From Stappia stellulata (GTDB lineage Bacteria; Pseudomonadota; Alphaproteobacteria; Rhizobiales; Stappiaceae), in contig NZ_JAIVMF010000008.1 in assembly GCF_020176715.1 (NCBI RefSeq), positions 62,001-126,000 on the forward strand: DNA of 64,000 nt, written 5' to 3'. Position 1 is the stretch's first letter. The number at the start of each line of letters is the position of its first letter. The position numbers and the translations under genes are program-made. Of this stretch, positions 33,549 to 39,351 are shown in pieces. The notes beneath the pieces are model-generated. The model searched no databases, was not told the DNA's origin, and saw nothing but the letters and a program-made list of their open reading frames with translations.

Positions 33549-34301
33549 CTACTTCAGCCGTCCCGGCAGGCTGAGATCGCCGGAGGCGACGTCGAAGACA
33601 TCCTCCACGCACAACAGCGGCGCATGCACGCTGGCATTGACCCTGAGGGCCGCGGTGACGCCGTCGTAAGCGGTTTCCGGCAGGCCGGTTTCATCGGCAA
33701 AGCCGACGCTCACCGAGATTTCCGGCCCGTCGAACAACGGCGTGAAGCCGGGGCTGTCGATATAGAGCGGCAGGCCGGGCCAGGTCGCCGGCAACCTGGG
33801 CGTTGCGCCCTCGGGAATGTTGCGCACGCCGAGCGCGCCTTCCGGGCAGCCTTCATCGGCCGTCAGGACGACCCAGTGACTGTGCCAGTCGCCGCCGTCG
33901 TTGGCGGGATCGCCATCGCGGTTTTCATCGAACAGCGGCGTGTCGTCGAAGTCCGGATGGCTGGTCGCCGCCAGCGCCAGAATGCCGCTTTTCGCCTCGA
34001 AGCCGACGACGGCCGGATCGAGCGATGTCGGCCAGACATAGCTCAGCACCGGCGCACCGCCAAGCGCGCCCGCCGGCTCGGGCGTGACCGAGCCGGCGGC
34101 TCCGGCCGTGGTCATGTGGAAGGTGACGATGCGGCCGCTGCGATGCGCATGTGCTGCCAGAATGTCGAAGGCCGCGACCGGGGTCGCACCTTCGCGCGCC
34201 TGGATAGCGTCCTTCCTGTCGGCCGCATGCAGTGTGTCGGCCAGCGACGGGGTGGCGGGAAGCAGGGCCGCGAGTGCCGCGATGAATGCAGGTCTGATCA
34301 T
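33549..34301 (-). CDS. Secreted protein of unknown function
   Basis: A protein of 250 residues that I do not recognise. The start at 34301 has GAGGA 7 bp upstream and gives a clean Sec signal peptide (MIRPAFIAALAALLPATPSLADT, cleavage after SLA, about residue 21). The mature part is rich in Asp, Pro, Gly and Thr, with only two Cys (in DEGCPEG and PLLCVED), which could form a disulfide. A segment near residues 121-141, DENRDGDPANDGGDWHSHW, looks like a calcium- or metal-binding loop with His and Trp. It is divergent from the MarR regulator, and both promoters lie in a 91-bp region holding the two operator palindromes, so it is the likely target of that regulator. Confidence 0.7.
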   Translation of the reverse strand: MIRPAFIAALAALLPATPSLADTLHAADRKDAIQAREGATPVAAFDILAAHAHRSGRIVTFHMTTAGAAGSVTPEPAGALGGAPVLSYVWPTSLDPAVVGFEAKSGILALAATSHPDFDDTPLFDENRDGDPANDGGDWHSHWVVLTADEGCPEGALGVRNIPEGATPRLPATWPGLPLYIDSPGFTPLFDGPEISVSVGFADETGLPETAYDGVTAALRVNASVHAPLLCVEDVFDVASGDLSLPGRLK

Positions 34302-34341
34302 GGGTCTGTCCTCGGAGAGTGTTTCGACCCTCCGTGAATAG

Positions 34342-34386
34342 TATCGAGTCGATATTATTGCAAATATAATTTCGACTCGATATAAA
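34342..34386. promoter_or_regulatory. Divergent promoter with two palindromic MarR operators
   Basis: Two TCGA-S-TCGA palindromes: 34342-34354 (a perfect 13-bp palindrome about a central G) and 34370-34382 (one mismatched pair). Together they also form an 11-bp perfect inverted repeat. Between them TTGCAA (34358-34363) is followed after exactly 17 bp by TATAAA (34381-34386), a good plus-strand promoter; the second operator overlaps its spacer and -10. TTGCAA is self-complementary, so it could also serve as -35 for the minus-strand gene (weak -10 TATTCA at 34340-34335). The stretch is strikingly AT-rich. Confidence 0.7.
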
Positions 34387-34392
34387 AGCCCT

Positions 34393-34932
34393 ATGACCAC
34401 CGACCGGATCCGCAGCCTCATCAACCGCCTGTCGCGCCTCGATGCCGGTGCCGACTGGGAGGCCGACCTCAATCCGGCCCAACGCGCGGCCCTCGACTAT
34501 CTCGTTCGGGCGAACCGCTTCTCGCGCTCGCCCTCCGTCGTGGCGGACTACCTCGGCAGCACGAGAGGAACGGTCTCCCAGACGCTCAAGAGCCTGGCCC
34601 GCAAGGGCTATCTCGTCGAAGAACGCTCAAGCGCCGACAAGCGGTCGATTTCCTATCGTGTCACCGAGGCGGGCCTGCGCGAGGCCGCCCGGACCGGCCC
34701 GCTTGCCGAGGCCTTGGCCGGGATCGGCGAGCCGGATCTTCTGGCGCTCGCCAACGACCTTGAAGGCCTGCTTCGCCGCGCGGTGCGGGCCGGCGGCAAC
34801 AAGCCGTTCGGCATCTGCCGCAATTGCCTGCACTTCCGGCCCAGGGAGGAGGGGGGCTTTTGTGCGCTGCTGTCCGTGGCGCTGGAACCAGACGAAACCC
34901 ATCGCATCTGTCACGAGCAGGAGCCCGCATGA
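34393..34932 (+). CDS. MarR-family regulator with C-terminal four-cysteine cluster
   Basis: A protein of 179 residues. Winged helix-turn-helix at about 28-100, with SPSVVADYLGSTRGTVSQTLKSLARKGYLVE as helix-turn-helix and SADKRSISYRVTEAG as the wing. After the dimerisation helices the C-terminus carries Cys142, Cys145, Cys157 and Cys173 (C-x2-C-x11-C-x15-C) with nearby His147 and His170. Such a cluster suggests a metal or Fe-S cofactor or a thiol redox switch; typical MarR proteins lack it. There is no Shine-Dalgarno sequence before the ATG and the predicted transcript start falls on or next to it, so translation may be leaderless. The stop codon overlaps the MOSC gene start. Confidence 0.85.
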   Translation: MTTDRIRSLINRLSRLDAGADWEADLNPAQRAALDYLVRANRFSRSPSVVADYLGSTRGTVSQTLKSLARKGYLVEERSSADKRSISYRVTEAGLREAARTGPLAEALAGIGEPDLLALANDLEGLLRRAVRAGGNKPFGICRNCLHFRPREEGGFCALLSVALEPDETHRICHEQEPA

Positions 34933-35630
34933 GCACCGACACTTTCAAAACAACAGTCGATGGCCTGTTCGCCGGCGCCGTTGCCGACCGCTGGGAAGGG
35001 CGTCCCGCGTCGGCCATCGCCAAGACGCCGGTCGCGGGGCCTGTCGAGATTGGCTTCGAGGGGCTTCTCGTGGATGCGCAGGCCGACCGCACGGTGCATG
35101 GCGGGGCGGAGAAGGCGCTGCACCACTATGCGGCCGATCACTATGCGGCCTGGATTGCGGAGGGGTATCTGCCCGGCGGAACGCGTCCTGCCGCCTTTGG
35201 CGAGAACCTCTCGACCCTGCGCGTCACGGAGGAGCAGATCTGCATCGGCGACGTGTTTCGCCTCGGGACCGCTCGGGTGCAGGTGTCCCAGGGGCGCCAG
35301 CCCTGCTGGAAGCTGAATGCCCATCGCGGGCGCGACGACATGGCGGCGGCGTTCCAGAAGACGGGGCGCACCGGCTGGTATTACCGGGTGCTCGAGCCCG
35401 GTCTTGTCTCGCTTGGGGATCCGTTCGAGTTGCTCGAGCGGCCTTGCCCGCAATGGACGGTGCTTGAGGTTACGCGCGCGCGGCTCACCAGGCGGATCGA
35501 TCCGGCACGGGCGGCGCAATTGTCGGCCCTGCCGGAACTCGCGGACGGCTGGCGCCAGGCATTCGCGAAGATTTCCGCGAATGCGCCGGCCGAGGACACT
35601 TCGGCGCGGCTTCTCGGCACCGCCGACTGA
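34929..35630 (+). CDS. MOSC-domain protein (YiiM-like)
   Basis: A protein of 233 residues. The MOSC core includes TVHGGAEKALHHY, FGENLSTLRVTEEQ, the invariant Cys126 in GRQPCWKLN (the probable molybdenum ligand) and GWYYRVLEPG. The length and motifs resemble E. coli YiiM, a molybdenum-cofactor enzyme that reduces N-hydroxylated bases such as 6-hydroxylaminopurine. The ATG overlaps the marR stop codon (ATGA), so the two are translationally coupled; the regulator probably controls this enzyme as well as itself. The substrate is not known. Confidence 0.85.
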   Translation: MSTDTFKTTVDGLFAGAVADRWEGRPASAIAKTPVAGPVEIGFEGLLVDAQADRTVHGGAEKALHHYAADHYAAWIAEGYLPGGTRPAAFGENLSTLRVTEEQICIGDVFRLGTARVQVSQGRQPCWKLNAHRGRDDMAAAFQKTGRTGWYYRVLEPGLVSLGDPFELLERPCPQWTVLEVTRARLTRRIDPARAAQLSALPELADGWRQAFAKISANAPAEDTSARLLGTAD

Positions 35631-35639
35631 CGGGCCGGA

Positions 35640-37667
35640 TTACGCGGCCGCCTCCGCCCGCGTTCCGACGATCTCCACCAGTTCCCGCATGATGTCGGTG
35701 AGCTGGAAGTTTTTCGGCGTGTAGACGGCGGCGACGCCCATGGCTTTCAGCTGGGCCGCGTCCTCGTCCGGAATGATGCCGCCGACGATGAGCGGAATGT
35801 CGTCGATGCCTTCGCTGCGCAGCCGCTCCATCACGTCGCGCACCAGCGCCAGATGCGAGCCGGAGAGGATCGACAGACCGATGACGTGGACGTCTTCTTC
35901 CAGGGCGGCGTTGACGATCTGGGCCGGCGTCAGGCGAATGCCCTCGTAGACGACCTCCATGCCGCAGTCACGGGCGCGCACGGCGATCTGTTCCGCACCG
36001 TTGGAATGTCCGTCGAGACCGGGTTTGCCGACCAGGAACTTGAGCCGGCGCCCGAGTTTCGCGGACACCGTGTCGACGGCGGAGCGCACGTCGGCGAGAT
36101 CGTCGGCATCGGCCCGCGCCGCCTTGCCGACGCCGGTGGGCGCGCGGTACTCGCCGAAGACCTCGCGCAGCGCCGCCCCCCATTCGCCGGTGGTGACGCC
36201 GGCCTTGGCCGCGGCAATCGACGGTTCCATGATGTTGCCGCCCTCGCTTGCGGCCTGTTTCAGGGCTGCGATGGCCTGTGCGACGGCGGCATCGTCGCGC
36301 GCCTCGCGCCACGCCGTCAGCGCCTCGATGGCTTCGGCTTCCACATGTTCCGGCACGGTGAGAATGCCGCCGTCCTCCCCGCTCGCCAGCGGCGAGGGCT
36401 CGCTTTCGGTGAACTTGTTGACGCCGACGACGACCTGATCGCCGGATTCAATCGCCGCGAGCCGCTCCGCGTTGGAGGCGACGAGCGCCTGTTTCATGTA
36501 GCTCGATTCCACCGCCGCGATGGCGCCGCCCATCTCGTCGATCCGGGCAAGCTCCGCGCGGGCCTCCTGTTTGAGCGCCTCGACCTTCTCGGTGATCACC
36601 TCCGAGCCGTCGAAGATGTCGGCATGTTCCAGGAGGTCGGTTTCATAGGCGAGGATCTGCTGGATCCTGAGCGACCACTGCTGGTCGAAGGGGCGCGGCA
36701 GGCCGAGCGCCTCGTTCCAGGCGGGAAGCTGCACGGCGCGGGCGCGGGCGTTCTTCGACAGCACCACGGCGAGTGCCTCGATCAGGATGCGGTAGACGTT
36801 GTTCTCCGGCTGCTGCTCGGTCAGACCGAGCGAGTTGACCTGCACGCCGTAGCGGAAGCGGCGGTAGCGCTCGTCCTCCACGCCGTAGCGGCTGCGGCAG
36901 ATCTCGTCCCACAGTTCGGCGAAGGCGCGCATCTTGCAGATCTCGGTGATGAAGCGCATGCCGGCGTTGACGAAGAAGGAAATGCGCCCGACCGCCTTGG
37001 GAAAATCCGCCGGCGGGATCGCGCCGCTGTCCCTGACCTCGTCGAGGATGGCGATGGCGGTGGCGAGTGCGAAGGAGAGCTCCTGCACCGGCGTCGCGCC
37101 GGCTTCCTGCAGGTGATAGGAGCAGACGTTCATCGGGTTCCACTTCGGCATCGCCTCATAGGTCCAGGCAATGACGTCGCGGGTCAGCCGCAGCGAGGGC
37201 GCGGGCGGAAACACATAGGTTCCGCGCGACAGATACTCCTTGACGATGTCGTTCTGCGTCGTGCCGGTCAGAAGCGCGCGGTCGGCGCCCTGCTCATCGG
37301 CGGCGGCGACATAAAGCGCCAGAAGCCAGGGCGCCGTCGCGTTGATCGTCATGGAGGTGTTCATCTTCTCCAGCGGGATCTCGTCGAAGAGCGCCCGCAT
37401 GTCGCCGAGATGGGCGACCGGCACGCCGACCTTGCCGACCTCGCCGCGCGACAGCGCGTGGTCCGGGTCGTAGCCGGTCTGCGTGGGAAGATCGAAGGCG
37501 ACCGACAGGCCGGTCTGCCCCTTGGCGAGGTTGCTGCGATAGAGCCTGTTGGACTCCCGCGCCGTGGAATGCCCGGCGTAGGTGCGAAAGATCCATGGCC
37601 GGTCCCGGACGGCTTGCCTGCGCTCCGCGTTGCTGGTGGTCGGCTGGCTCTGTGTCGGCTCGCTCAT
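35640..37667 (-). CDS. ecm: Ethylmalonyl-CoA mutase
   Basis: AdoCbl-dependent conversion of (2R)-ethylmalonyl-CoA to methylsuccinyl-CoA in the ethylmalonyl-CoA pathway. The protein has 675 residues. The N-terminal substrate-binding barrel (FDLPTQTGYDPDH, TGTTQNDIVKEYLSRGTY, CSYHLQEAGATP) is fused to a C-terminal B12-binding domain with GLDGHSNGAEQIA, where His554 is the lower cobalt ligand. DGHSNG rather than DGHDRG separates Ecm from methylmalonyl-CoA mutase. The Met at 37667 is preferred as start because GAGGAG lies 6 bp before it; the Met at 37673 abuts this element. It is divergent from ccr, its pathway partner. Confidence 0.93.
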   Translation of the reverse strand: MSEPTQSQPTTSNAERRQAVRDRPWIFRTYAGHSTARESNRLYRSNLAKGQTGLSVAFDLPTQTGYDPDHALSRGEVGKVGVPVAHLGDMRALFDEIPLEKMNTSMTINATAPWLLALYVAAADEQGADRALLTGTTQNDIVKEYLSRGTYVFPPAPSLRLTRDVIAWTYEAMPKWNPMNVCSYHLQEAGATPVQELSFALATAIAILDEVRDSGAIPPADFPKAVGRISFFVNAGMRFITEICKMRAFAELWDEICRSRYGVEDERYRRFRYGVQVNSLGLTEQQPENNVYRILIEALAVVLSKNARARAVQLPAWNEALGLPRPFDQQWSLRIQQILAYETDLLEHADIFDGSEVITEKVEALKQEARAELARIDEMGGAIAAVESSYMKQALVASNAERLAAIESGDQVVVGVNKFTESEPSPLASGEDGGILTVPEHVEAEAIEALTAWREARDDAAVAQAIAALKQAASEGGNIMEPSIAAAKAGVTTGEWGAALREVFGEYRAPTGVGKAARADADDLADVRSAVDTVSAKLGRRLKFLVGKPGLDGHSNGAEQIAVRARDCGMEVVYEGIRLTPAQIVNAALEEDVHVIGLSILSGSHLALVRDVMERLRSEGIDDIPLIVGGIIPDEDAAQLKAMGVAAVYTPKNFQLTDIMRELVEIVGTRAEAAA

Positions 37668-38052
37668 GGACATCTCCTCGCAATCGCGCCGGTGGCCGCT
37701 CGCACCGGCCCGGCATCTTCCTGTTTTATCTCCGATACGTCCGTCGCAATGCGTCCGTATGGCCTGCCTCACGCGCGTGGAACACTGCGCGCGCGCAGAA
37801 ATTCTATGTGCAATGCAAAAACAGTCTTGGGCAAACGGGTAAATTAAGCAATAGTCCAATAGCGTGACGCCCCTTTTTCGCACGATAGTTTCGTGATAGG
37901 GCACGCGGGACGGGTTTTTGAATGACGCGCCGCAGCAAAAGGCGCCTTTGGCGGGGGCTCTCCGGGGTCGCCGGAAGTGTGTCGGGACACGCGGTGGCGC
38001 GGCGGTGGCCGTGCTTCGGCAAAAATGCATAATACGGGAGGACACGACAACC
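37668..38052. other. Shared ecm / ccr divergent control region
   Basis: 385 bp with no convincing gene. The middle part (37800-37900) is clearly more AT-rich than the surroundings. Four GCAA motifs occur at 37810, 37815, 37831 and 37848, and a TTGCGCAA palindrome lies in the first codons of ccr (38063-38070). Such TTGC/GCAA elements could be sites for a short-chain acyl-CoA regulator (RamB/ScfR type), but I cannot show this. No clear -35/-10 pair was found. Confidence 0.4.
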
Positions 38053-39351
38053 ATGAGCACCGTTGCGCAAGCAAACGACAACCTCGAGGCTGAGGAGAGC
38101 CGGCCGGTGAAGGACCTTTACGAGATTGGCGAGATCCCGCCGCTCGGGCATGTTCCCAAGAACATGTACGCCTGGACGATCCGCGCCGAACGGCACGGTC
38201 CCCCGGAAGAGGCGATGAAGCTCGAGGTCGTGCCGACCTGGGAACTGGACAGCAACGAGGTTCTCGTTCTCGTGATGGCGGCCGGCGTCAACTACAACGG
38301 GATCTGGGCCGCCCTCGGCGAGCCGATCTCGGTGTTCAAGGTGCATGACGAACCCTTCCATATCGCGGGCTCCGACGCCTCCGGCATTGTCTGGGCGGTC
38401 GGATCGAAGGTGAAGCGCTGGAAGGTCGGCGACGAGGTCGTCATCCATTGCAATCAGGACGACGGCGACGACGAGGAGTGCAACGGCGGCGACCCGATGT
38501 TCTCGCCGACGCAGCGGATCTGGGGCTATGAGACCCCGGACGGGTCGTTCTCGCAGTTCTGCCGGGTGCAGTCGCAGCAGCTGATGCCGCGGCCGAAGCA
38601 TCTGACCTGGGAGGAAAGCGCCTGCTACACGCTGACGCTCGCCACCGCCTACCGCATGCTGTTCGGCCATGCGCCGCACCAGTTGCGTCCGGGCCAGAAC
38701 GTTCTCGTGTGGGGCGCGTCGGGCGGTCTCGGCGTCTTCGGCATCCAGCTCGCGGCCGCCGCCGGCGCAAATGCGATCGGCATCATCTCGGATGAAGACA
38801 AGCGCGACTACGTGCTGTCGCTTGGCGCCAAGGGCGTGATCAACCGCAAGGATTTCGATTGCTGGGGCCAGATGCCGACCGTCAACTCGCCCGAGTACAA
38901 CACCTGGCTCAAGGAAGCGCGGCGCTTCGGCAAGGCGATCTGGGAGATCACCGGCAAGGGCAACGATGTCGACATGGTGTTCGAGCATCCGGGCGAATCG
39001 ACGTTTCCGGTCTCCTGTCTGGTGGCCAAGCGCGGCGGCATGGTGGTTTTCTGTGCCGGTACGACCGGCTTCAACCTGACCTTCGACGCGCGCTATGTCT
39101 GGATGCGTCAGAAGCGCATCCAGGGATCGCATTTCGCGCATCTCAAGCAGGCGTCGGAAGCCAACAAGGCGGTGATGGATCGCCGCATCGATCCGTGCAT
39201 GAGCGAGGTCTTCCCCTGGGAGGAGATCCCGAACGCCCACACCAAGATGTGGAAGAACCAGCATGCGCCCGGCAATATGGCGGTTCTGGTCAACGCGCCG
39301 ACGACGGGCCTGCGCACTCTGGATGACGTGCTGGCTGCCGGCTCGGACTGA
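38053..39351 (+). CDS. ccr: Crotonyl-CoA carboxylase/reductase
   Basis: Key enzyme of the ethylmalonyl-CoA pathway: reductive carboxylation of crotonyl-CoA to ethylmalonyl-CoA with NADPH and CO2. An MDR-superfamily protein of 432 residues. Seen: the NYNGIWAALGEP segment (residues 80-91) with the Asn that helps hold CO2, HCNQDDGDD and RIWGYETPDGSF, typical of Ccr, the nucleotide loop WGASGGLGVFGIQLA, the FEHPGE motif, and His360 in RIQGSHFAH, part of the CO2 site. GGAGG lies upstream of the ATG. Its stop is followed by a perfect 12-bp hairpin. Confidence 0.96.
   Translation: MSTVAQANDNLEAEESRPVKDLYEIGEIPPLGHVPKNMYAWTIRAERHGPPEEAMKLEVVPTWELDSNEVLVLVMAAGVNYNGIWAALGEPISVFKVHDEPFHIAGSDASGIVWAVGSKVKRWKVGDEVVIHCNQDDGDDEECNGGDPMFSPTQRIWGYETPDGSFSQFCRVQSQQLMPRPKHLTWEESACYTLTLATAYRMLFGHAPHQLRPGQNVLVWGASGGLGVFGIQLAAAAGANAIGIISDEDKRDYVLSLGAKGVINRKDFDCWGQMPTVNSPEYNTWLKEARRFGKAIWEITGKGNDVDMVFEHPGESTFPVSCLVAKRGGMVVFCAGTTGFNLTFDARYVWMRQKRIQGSHFAHLKQASEANKAVMDRRIDPCMSEVFPWEEIPNAHTKMWKNQHAPGNMAVLVNAPTTGLRTLDDVLAAGSD

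Follow-up and report, generated by a model that had tools for sequence, protein, structure and literature searches.

The stretch of DNA analysed here, called the window, comprises 64,000 nucleotides (nt) of the Stappia stellulata contig NZ_JAIVMF010000008.1 (positions 62,001 to 126,000 of the forward strand; contig 8 of a 4.5 Mb genome, G000), and the locus under study occupies positions 33549-35630 of it. The locus consists of a divergent pair of genes, one for a predicted exported protein without a known family, here named SEC, and one for a MarR-family regulator, together with a gene for a MOSC protein. SEC (33549-34301, minus strand) has 250 residues and carries the invariant residues H115-P-D, D120 and W139-H-x-H-W143. 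The regulator (34393-34932, plus strand) has 179 residues, and its codons 142-173 (34816-34911, plus strand) hold the four cysteine residues C142, C145, C157 and C173, for which it is called Cys4-MarR below. The third gene (34929-35630, plus strand) encodes a YiiM-like MOSC protein of 233 residues, and its ATG overlaps the MarR stop codon by 4 nt. Gene calls and Pfam bear out a first-pass annotation of the window in that all three genes are present, the MarR protein with its four cysteines and the MOSC gene coupled to it. The ATG at 34301 on the minus strand was judged the best start of SEC, with an AGGA-type ribosome site upstream, for which the Shine-Dalgarno-like GAGGA at 34309-34313 (minus strand) is the candidate. 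A 307-residue open reading frame that begins with TTG and extends to 34472 was considered as the SEC frame and rejected in favour of this ATG.

A scan of the genome collection, with one genome per species, returned at least 573 relatives of SEC, and partner genes were counted in the best 80 of these (the close loci, L016-L095). Cys4-MarR is divergent to SEC in 77 of the 80 close loci. The MOSC gene is present in 42, directly behind MarR in 41 and behind SEC in one, a redoxin gene in 32 and an HTHP gene in 19, and 18 loci contain MarR and SEC without MOSC, redoxin or HTHP. As the close loci are nearest relatives, they are not independent. In a less biased test, 398 genomes of the phylum, that of S. 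stellulata included, were searched with one profile for SEC and another for the Cys4 tail. SEC was detected in 15 and the Cys4 tail in 27 of them, and Cys4-MarR was present in 13 of the 15 SEC genomes versus 14 of the 383 others (Fisher p 2e-15); the same test without the S. stellulata genome and two weak matches (G037, G073) gave p 9e-15. Among 61 related genomes, all 11 with a SEC match also hold Cys4-MarR, and two more hold Cys4-MarR without SEC. Some of the SEC matches are incomplete: in G011 (L014) SEC is a decayed C-terminal remnant and the adjoining MarR and MOSC matches are full length with 80-82% identity, in G044 the match is broken by a stop codon, and in G010 it spans residues 36-246 only.

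The SEC-MarR unit is thus not a chance arrangement, and it is widely shared among bacteria. That three unrelated genes merely share one stretch could be argued from the 38 of 80 close loci that lack MOSC and from the MarR-MOSC pair that persists by the decayed SEC remnant in G011, but this explanation is already contradicted for MarR and SEC by their co-occurrence and by the operator statistics given below, and it keeps next to no probability. The three genes had been proposed to form a co-conserved cassette. This holds for the regulator and SEC in the close loci, the phylum genomes and the relatives alike, but MOSC is optional and other genes can stand in for it. Because MOSC occurs in only 42 of the 80 close loci, the cassette with all three genes represents one form of a larger plug-in module, in which SEC and MarR are accompanied by the optional genes MOSC, redoxin, HTHP, thioredoxin-like and DUF2024.

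The start codons of SEC and MarR are separated by 91 base pairs (bp), and a 17-nt inverted repeat, 94% complementary, lies between them at 34342-34382. Operator-like site 1, TATCGAGTCGATA (34342-34354), and operator-like site 2, TTTCGACTCGATA (34370-34382), flank the self-complementary hexamer TTGCAA (34358-34363). The hexamer may serve as a -35 element common to both divergent promoters, since the SEC -10-like hexamer TATTCA (34335-34340, minus strand) and the MarR -10-like hexamer TATAAA (34381-34386, plus strand) each lie 17 nt from it; site 1 would then fall in the spacer of the SEC promoter and site 2 in that of MarR. The TATAAA hexamer is six bases before the ATG, and the MarR transcript would be leaderless, starting at or beside this codon. 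TTGCAA is found in 73 of 78 intergenic regions. Among the 73 loci, the distance of the MarR-side site to TTGCAA is fixed in 68, the SEC-side site keeps one distance in 48 and lies farther off in another 22, and TA stands at the SEC -10-like position in 64-65.

The operator 13-mer, a near-palindrome TAKCGASTCGMWA, occurs in 96 copies in the 77 MarR/SEC promoter regions (7,867 bp) and in one copy in the other 926,527 bp of these loci, and 65 of the 77 loci contain at least one exact copy. This enrichment and the inverted repeat agree with the single regulatory region that had been postulated for the unit. In the S. stellulata genome exact operator sites are confined to the SEC-MarR locus, and a larger regulon in this genome was rejected on that ground. 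When one mismatch was allowed, 14 matches were obtained in the same genome, 10 of them elsewhere, and the reversed control pattern gave 47.

Two loci in which the unit is split bear on whether SEC depends on Cys4-MarR. In Leisingera aquaemixtae CECT 8399 (L078), SEC-redoxin and MarR-MOSC are located about 44 kb apart on a contig of 101,738 bases, and operator-like sites are kept at both places, two at SEC and one at MarR. A metagenome bin (L026, L201) has a similar split over two contigs, with the 13-mer upstream of SEC and only its 7-bp core upstream of MarR. At the level of sequence, the shared and retained operator-like sites support regulation of SEC by Cys4-MarR.

The regulator contains a MarR_2 domain (Pfam, E 2e-11, 44.2 bits with a cut-off of 27). 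Its AlphaFold2 model, with a mean predicted local distance difference test (pLDDT) score of 95, fits MarR structures of the PDB with Z 12.1-13.7 among the 50 matches shown, and this comparison, which includes model residues 1-145 at most, covers the MarR part and not the Cys4 tail. The tail motif, C-x2-C-x11-C-x15-C, is located at the C terminus, and residues 141-179 are predicted with a pLDDT of 95-97. All 91 of 91 aligned MarR rows, in which one gene is entered twice (L013 and L015), have Cys142, Cys145, Cys157 and Cys173. The motif occurs in 111 of 112 SEC-partner MarR proteins, a set in which a few entries, that of S. stellulata included, are duplicates. The lone exception is found on a plasmid of Lelliottia sp. 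JS-SCA-14 (L126, 5062-5415, minus strand), where the MarR frame stops just past the first two tail cysteines. The four residues are likewise unchanged in an alignment of 72 sequences, which extends to Bacteroidota and Deinococcus, and in one of 65, and are among the few invariant columns of the MarR alignments. The combination of a tail modelled with high confidence and four cysteines that do not vary points to a bound metal, either zinc or an iron-sulfur (Fe-S) cluster.

A less specific explanation is an ordinary ligand-responsive MarR protein, in which the four cysteines form a purely structural zinc knuckle, the signal is a small organic ligand and the nearby redox genes have no bearing on it. 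Binding of small ligands is the rule among MarR proteins, and the fold of the regulator is that of a standard MarR protein (Z up to 13.7). However, similar redox partners recur by orphan Cys4-MarR genes, i.e. those without SEC, and a merely structural role sits poorly with cysteines that are among so few invariant positions; this explanation is improbable. A role in anti-phage defence was also considered and rejected: in PADLOC neither SEC nor MOSC had a match, and the weak matches of the regulator to CARF/Csa3 models (best E 1e-5) were ascribed to winged-helix sequence common to both. In the phage collection nothing matched the regulator at E 1e-5.

A precedent for a switch responding to nitric oxide (NO) is ArnR of Corynebacterium, described in the available text of PMC12343034 as a MarR/ArsR-like winged helix-turn-helix repressor of narKGHJI and hmp that holds a [4Fe-4S] cluster and whose DNA binding is abolished by NO. 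Both ArnR and Cys4-MarR are of a winged-helix repressor type with C-terminal cysteines. In the same text ArnR has three conserved cysteines and is almost exclusively found in Actinobacteria, whereas Cys4-MarR has four in the spacing given above, and the two are likened by description only. By analogy, Cys4-MarR would work like metal-cluster repressors such as ArnR; membership of the ArnR family is not claimed. NsrR, which that text presents as an Fe-S repressor relieved by NO, would act alike but belongs to a different family, Rrf2, and a Pfam search of the window MarR gave no Rrf2 domain up to E 1. CioR of Chromobacterium violaceum is likewise a MarR-type repressor, and its target genes confer protection against NO, sulfide, cyanide and peroxide; it is GbsR-type, and in the available text of PMC11837568 one cysteine (C52) is named and inactivation by metal is ascribed to other residues.

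SEC had been described as a secreted protein with no recognisable family. The window protein has no match in Pfam or NCBIfam, 68 members of the family gave weak Pfam matches at most (best E 0.012), and a comparison with PDB sequences gave no credible solved structure; matches to glutamate 5-kinase and FtsH (E 0.13 to 2.1) were judged to be chance. The description therefore stands for these three databases, but with the number of relatives given above SEC is not an orphan, despite the absence of a curated family. H115, P116, D117, D120, W139, H140, H142 and W143 are unchanged in 105 of 105 aligned sequences, and C152, H226 and C231 are kept in 103, with C152 and C231 absent from the two Bacteroidota rows among the aligned segments printed. 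This alignment omits the S. stellulata copy (L109), and the broken or duplicate copies L112, L121 and L124, and of the loci below L016 it includes only L004. The HPDFxD and WHxHW motifs probably form a metal site, which would be His-based, and C152 and C231 could form a disulfide. The start of SEC resembles a signal peptide, and all 105 sequences fit a signal-peptide pattern, which is lax and so lends support to export rather than proof. The predicted structure (pLDDT 78.6) gave weak fold leads in VIA-align. The best is 2ivf_C (Z 6.7, 154 aligned residues, root-mean-square deviation 4.3), which we take to be the heme-binding gamma subunit of ethylbenzene dehydrogenase, followed by 1i82_A (CBM9, Z 6.3) and 7b04_O (Nxr, Z 5.8), a value also reached by antibody chains. 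A Foldseek search with the same model against the PDB and viral models gave nothing at E 0.001.

The invariant histidine site of SEC, taken together with the Cys4 tail of the regulator, would also suit metal-ion homeostasis, with Cys4-MarR sensing zinc, copper or a similar ion directly and SEC acting as a periplasmic metal binder, and a small protein that looks ArsR-like by sequence recurs in 5 of 82 loci. Yet it is MarR, MOSC, redoxin and HTHP that recur at a constant position next to SEC; of the transporter clusters, ABC ATPase was seen in 7 loci and TRAP-like permease in 5, and neither keeps a set place. We regard this explanation as quite improbable.

The MOSC protein contains a MOSC domain (E 1e-34, 119.1 bits) and a YiiM_3-alpha domain (E 6e-7, 29.6 bits; Pfam cut-offs 22.7). 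It shares both with E. coli YiiM, a 6-hydroxylaminopurine reductase, and its C126 aligns with the invariant C120 of that protein. Unlike E. coli YiiM, the window MOSC is coupled to Cys4-MarR, and with 157.5 bits it stays below the cut-off of 294 for the NCBIfam 6-hydroxyaminopurine reductase equivalog NF008577. The invariant cysteine and phosphate-site residues of the E. coli enzyme are C120, Q115, S118, S200 and W201 according to the available text of PMC5818509; counted along one pairwise alignment, the Cys, Gln and Trp residues are kept in the window protein and both Ser residues are not. Reduction of N-hydroxylated bases by MOSC relatives, as described in the available text of PMC3831636, fits either a nitrosative or a thiol-oxidant stress. 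The molybdenum cofactor can probably be made in S. stellulata, since MoaA scored over its cut-off in the genome. The same genome holds two more MOSC-domain matches (G000:C13:7374-7721 and G000:C33:9627-9947).

The partner genes give the stress context of the module. On the megaplasmid of Ruegeria pomeroyi DSS-3, MOSC and MarR are divergent to SEC, HTHP, redoxin and a second MOSC gene, so that the HTHP locus of this organism is the SEC-MarR-MOSC unit of the window with HTHP and redoxin as additional partners. HTHP is a heme protein with peroxide chemistry; we know of no settled physiological role for it, and in the 19 close loci that contain it, it falls within the SEC-MarR unit. In Hymenobacter the neighbours of SEC are hmpA, an Rrf2 gene, catalase, HTHP, protoglobin, DUF2024, Cys4-MarR and MOSC; in Deinococcus they are an NsrR-like Rrf2 gene (115 bits, under the cut-off of 182), Cys4-MarR and a peroxidase-related enzyme; and in Shinella Cys4-MarR, redoxin, MOSC, a RirA/NsrR-like gene and ccoNOP. 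Orphan Cys4-MarR genes are accompanied by a divergent cytochrome P460 gene plus a redoxin gene (L167), a thioredoxin-like protein and MOSC (L162), an SPW-like protein (L170), or Old Yellow Enzyme and a class I glutamine amidotransferase (L169, L172 and L173, with MOSC only in L173). The partners in L162, L169 and part of L173 were named by resemblance, not by Pfam. Across the phylum, SEC is present in 3 of 8 HTHP genomes (p 0.002), a modest association, and HTHP adjoins SEC only in G360. The S. stellulata genome gave no HTHP match and no match to the redoxin query, the latter in a search without a positive control. Of the 29 genomes with SEC or Cys4-MarR, 11 have a copper nitrite reductase above the cut-off score, versus 44 of the 369 others (p 0.0006), a weak enrichment with taxonomy uncontrolled. 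Sensing of redox, metal or nitrosative stress by the regulator, as the first-pass annotation had proposed, is plausible and consistent with these neighbours, which favour a nitrosative or a thiol-oxidant stress without separating the two.

The explanation that we tentatively prefer, and to which we give somewhat less than an even chance, is that a metal-thiolate Cys4-MarR represses SEC and its own operon until nitrosative or thiol-oxidant stress relieves the repression. A Cys4-MarR dimer, most likely with an Fe-S cluster or zinc on its four C-terminal cysteines, would bind the two TA[GT]CGA[GC]TCG[CA]TA-like sites in the spacers of the back-to-back promoters with their common TTGCAA, and would so repress itself, together with MOSC, and SEC. 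Nitric oxide or a related thiol- or metal-reactive stress would damage the metal-thiolate centre, and the DNA would be released. The cell would then make SEC, which would reside in the periplasm and whose conserved His-based site probably binds metal, along with co-induced detoxification enzymes that vary between loci: in S. stellulata this would be MOSC, acting as a reductase of N-hydroxylated compounds, and in other loci redoxin, HTHP, a thioredoxin-like protein or cytochrome P460.

A related explanation differs in the signal. In a module for thiol oxidants and electrophiles, the four cysteines would hold a structural-regulatory zinc, and hypochlorous acid, quinones, disulfide stress or organic peroxides would oxidise or alkylate the thiolates; redoxin, thioredoxin-like protein, glutathione S-transferase (GST) and Old Yellow Enzyme would repair thiols and remove electrophiles, and SEC would work in the envelope. 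The redoxin gene in 32 of the 80 close loci, a GST-like protein recurring in 6 of 82 loci, the thioredoxin-like partners, and the Old Yellow Enzyme and glutamine amidotransferase beside orphan Cys4-MarR genes all suit it. The neighbours HTHP, protoglobin, Hmp and cytochrome P460, on the other hand, are heme proteins with a closer link to NO or peroxide, and we know of no role of MOSC proteins in electrophile stress. This version is unlikely, though to be taken seriously.

Several observations weigh against the preferred explanation of a metal-thiolate repressor relieved by nitrosative or thiol-oxidant stress. The adjacent MarR gene is missing in 3 of the 80 close loci, and three of the five genomes with SEC but no adjacent MarR that were searched (G180, G339 and that of L076) gave no Cys4-MarR match. 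The exact palindrome TAKCGASTCGMTA occurs in 8 of the 61 relatives, in six between MarR and SEC and in two elsewhere (G033, G038), and is missing in 5 of the 11 SEC-matching relatives (G006, G010, G011, G036, G056). Its reversed control matches in 12 of the 61, so lone exact matches outside the MarR-SEC gap mean little. The exact 13-mer is absent from L110-L114, L116-L118, L120, L121 and L123-L132, including R. pomeroyi (L131); as it is missing from many loci beyond the best 80, the operator seems to be clade-specific. A consensus promoter scan found no promoter in 34250-34450. As to the signal, copper nitrite reductase is associated with SEC alone in only 5 of 15 genomes (p 0.04) and is not over its cut-off in the S. 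stellulata genome. Within the 80 close loci hmp has no match, an Rrf2-type match was obtained in three, catalase in two and ccoN in two, and the nitrosative link therefore depends on a small number of distant loci. Electrophile or oxidant stress would equally account for the redoxin, GST, thioredoxin-like and Old Yellow Enzyme partners.

A wider claim would be that these regulators, which range from Proteobacteria to Deinococcus and Bacteroidota, form a new MarR repressor class with a C-terminal Cys4 metal centre as direct NO or redox switch, and that they control a plug-in set of heme, thiol and molybdenum enzymes and a new periplasmic metalloprotein family, SEC, which handles the stressor itself. 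We consider this possible but doubtful. The unit ties an uncharacterised family of predicted exported proteins, numerous and with an invariant His/Trp/Asp core, to one type of regulator, and the family thereby gains an operator that can be tested and partners that recur. If Cys4-MarR were an Fe-S or zinc redox or NO switch, this would be one more type of sensor in use among many marine bacteria, and the function of YiiM-like MOSC proteins could be tested directly. In a literature search whose coverage excluded most subscription journals, no publication on the SEC-MarR unit was recognised.

Upstream, the locus is flanked by a GH25 gene and a LysM/BON gene (Pfam). Downstream, at 35640-39351, are genes that, read from their translations, resemble ethylmalonyl-CoA mutase and crotonyl-CoA carboxylase/reductase and that we take to belong to the ethylmalonyl-CoA pathway. 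Neither flank is counted as a member of the SEC-MarR-MOSC unit. In L163 an orphan Cys4-MarR gene is divergent from a thioredoxin-like gene, which is followed by a Rof-like (Rho-binding) gene, and L164 and L165, of the same genus, have a similar frame. A small Bacteroidota protein that looks Rof-like adjoins Cys4-MarR in L127 (6508-6795; no Pfam match at E 0.001 for this copy) and L132 (6724-6990).

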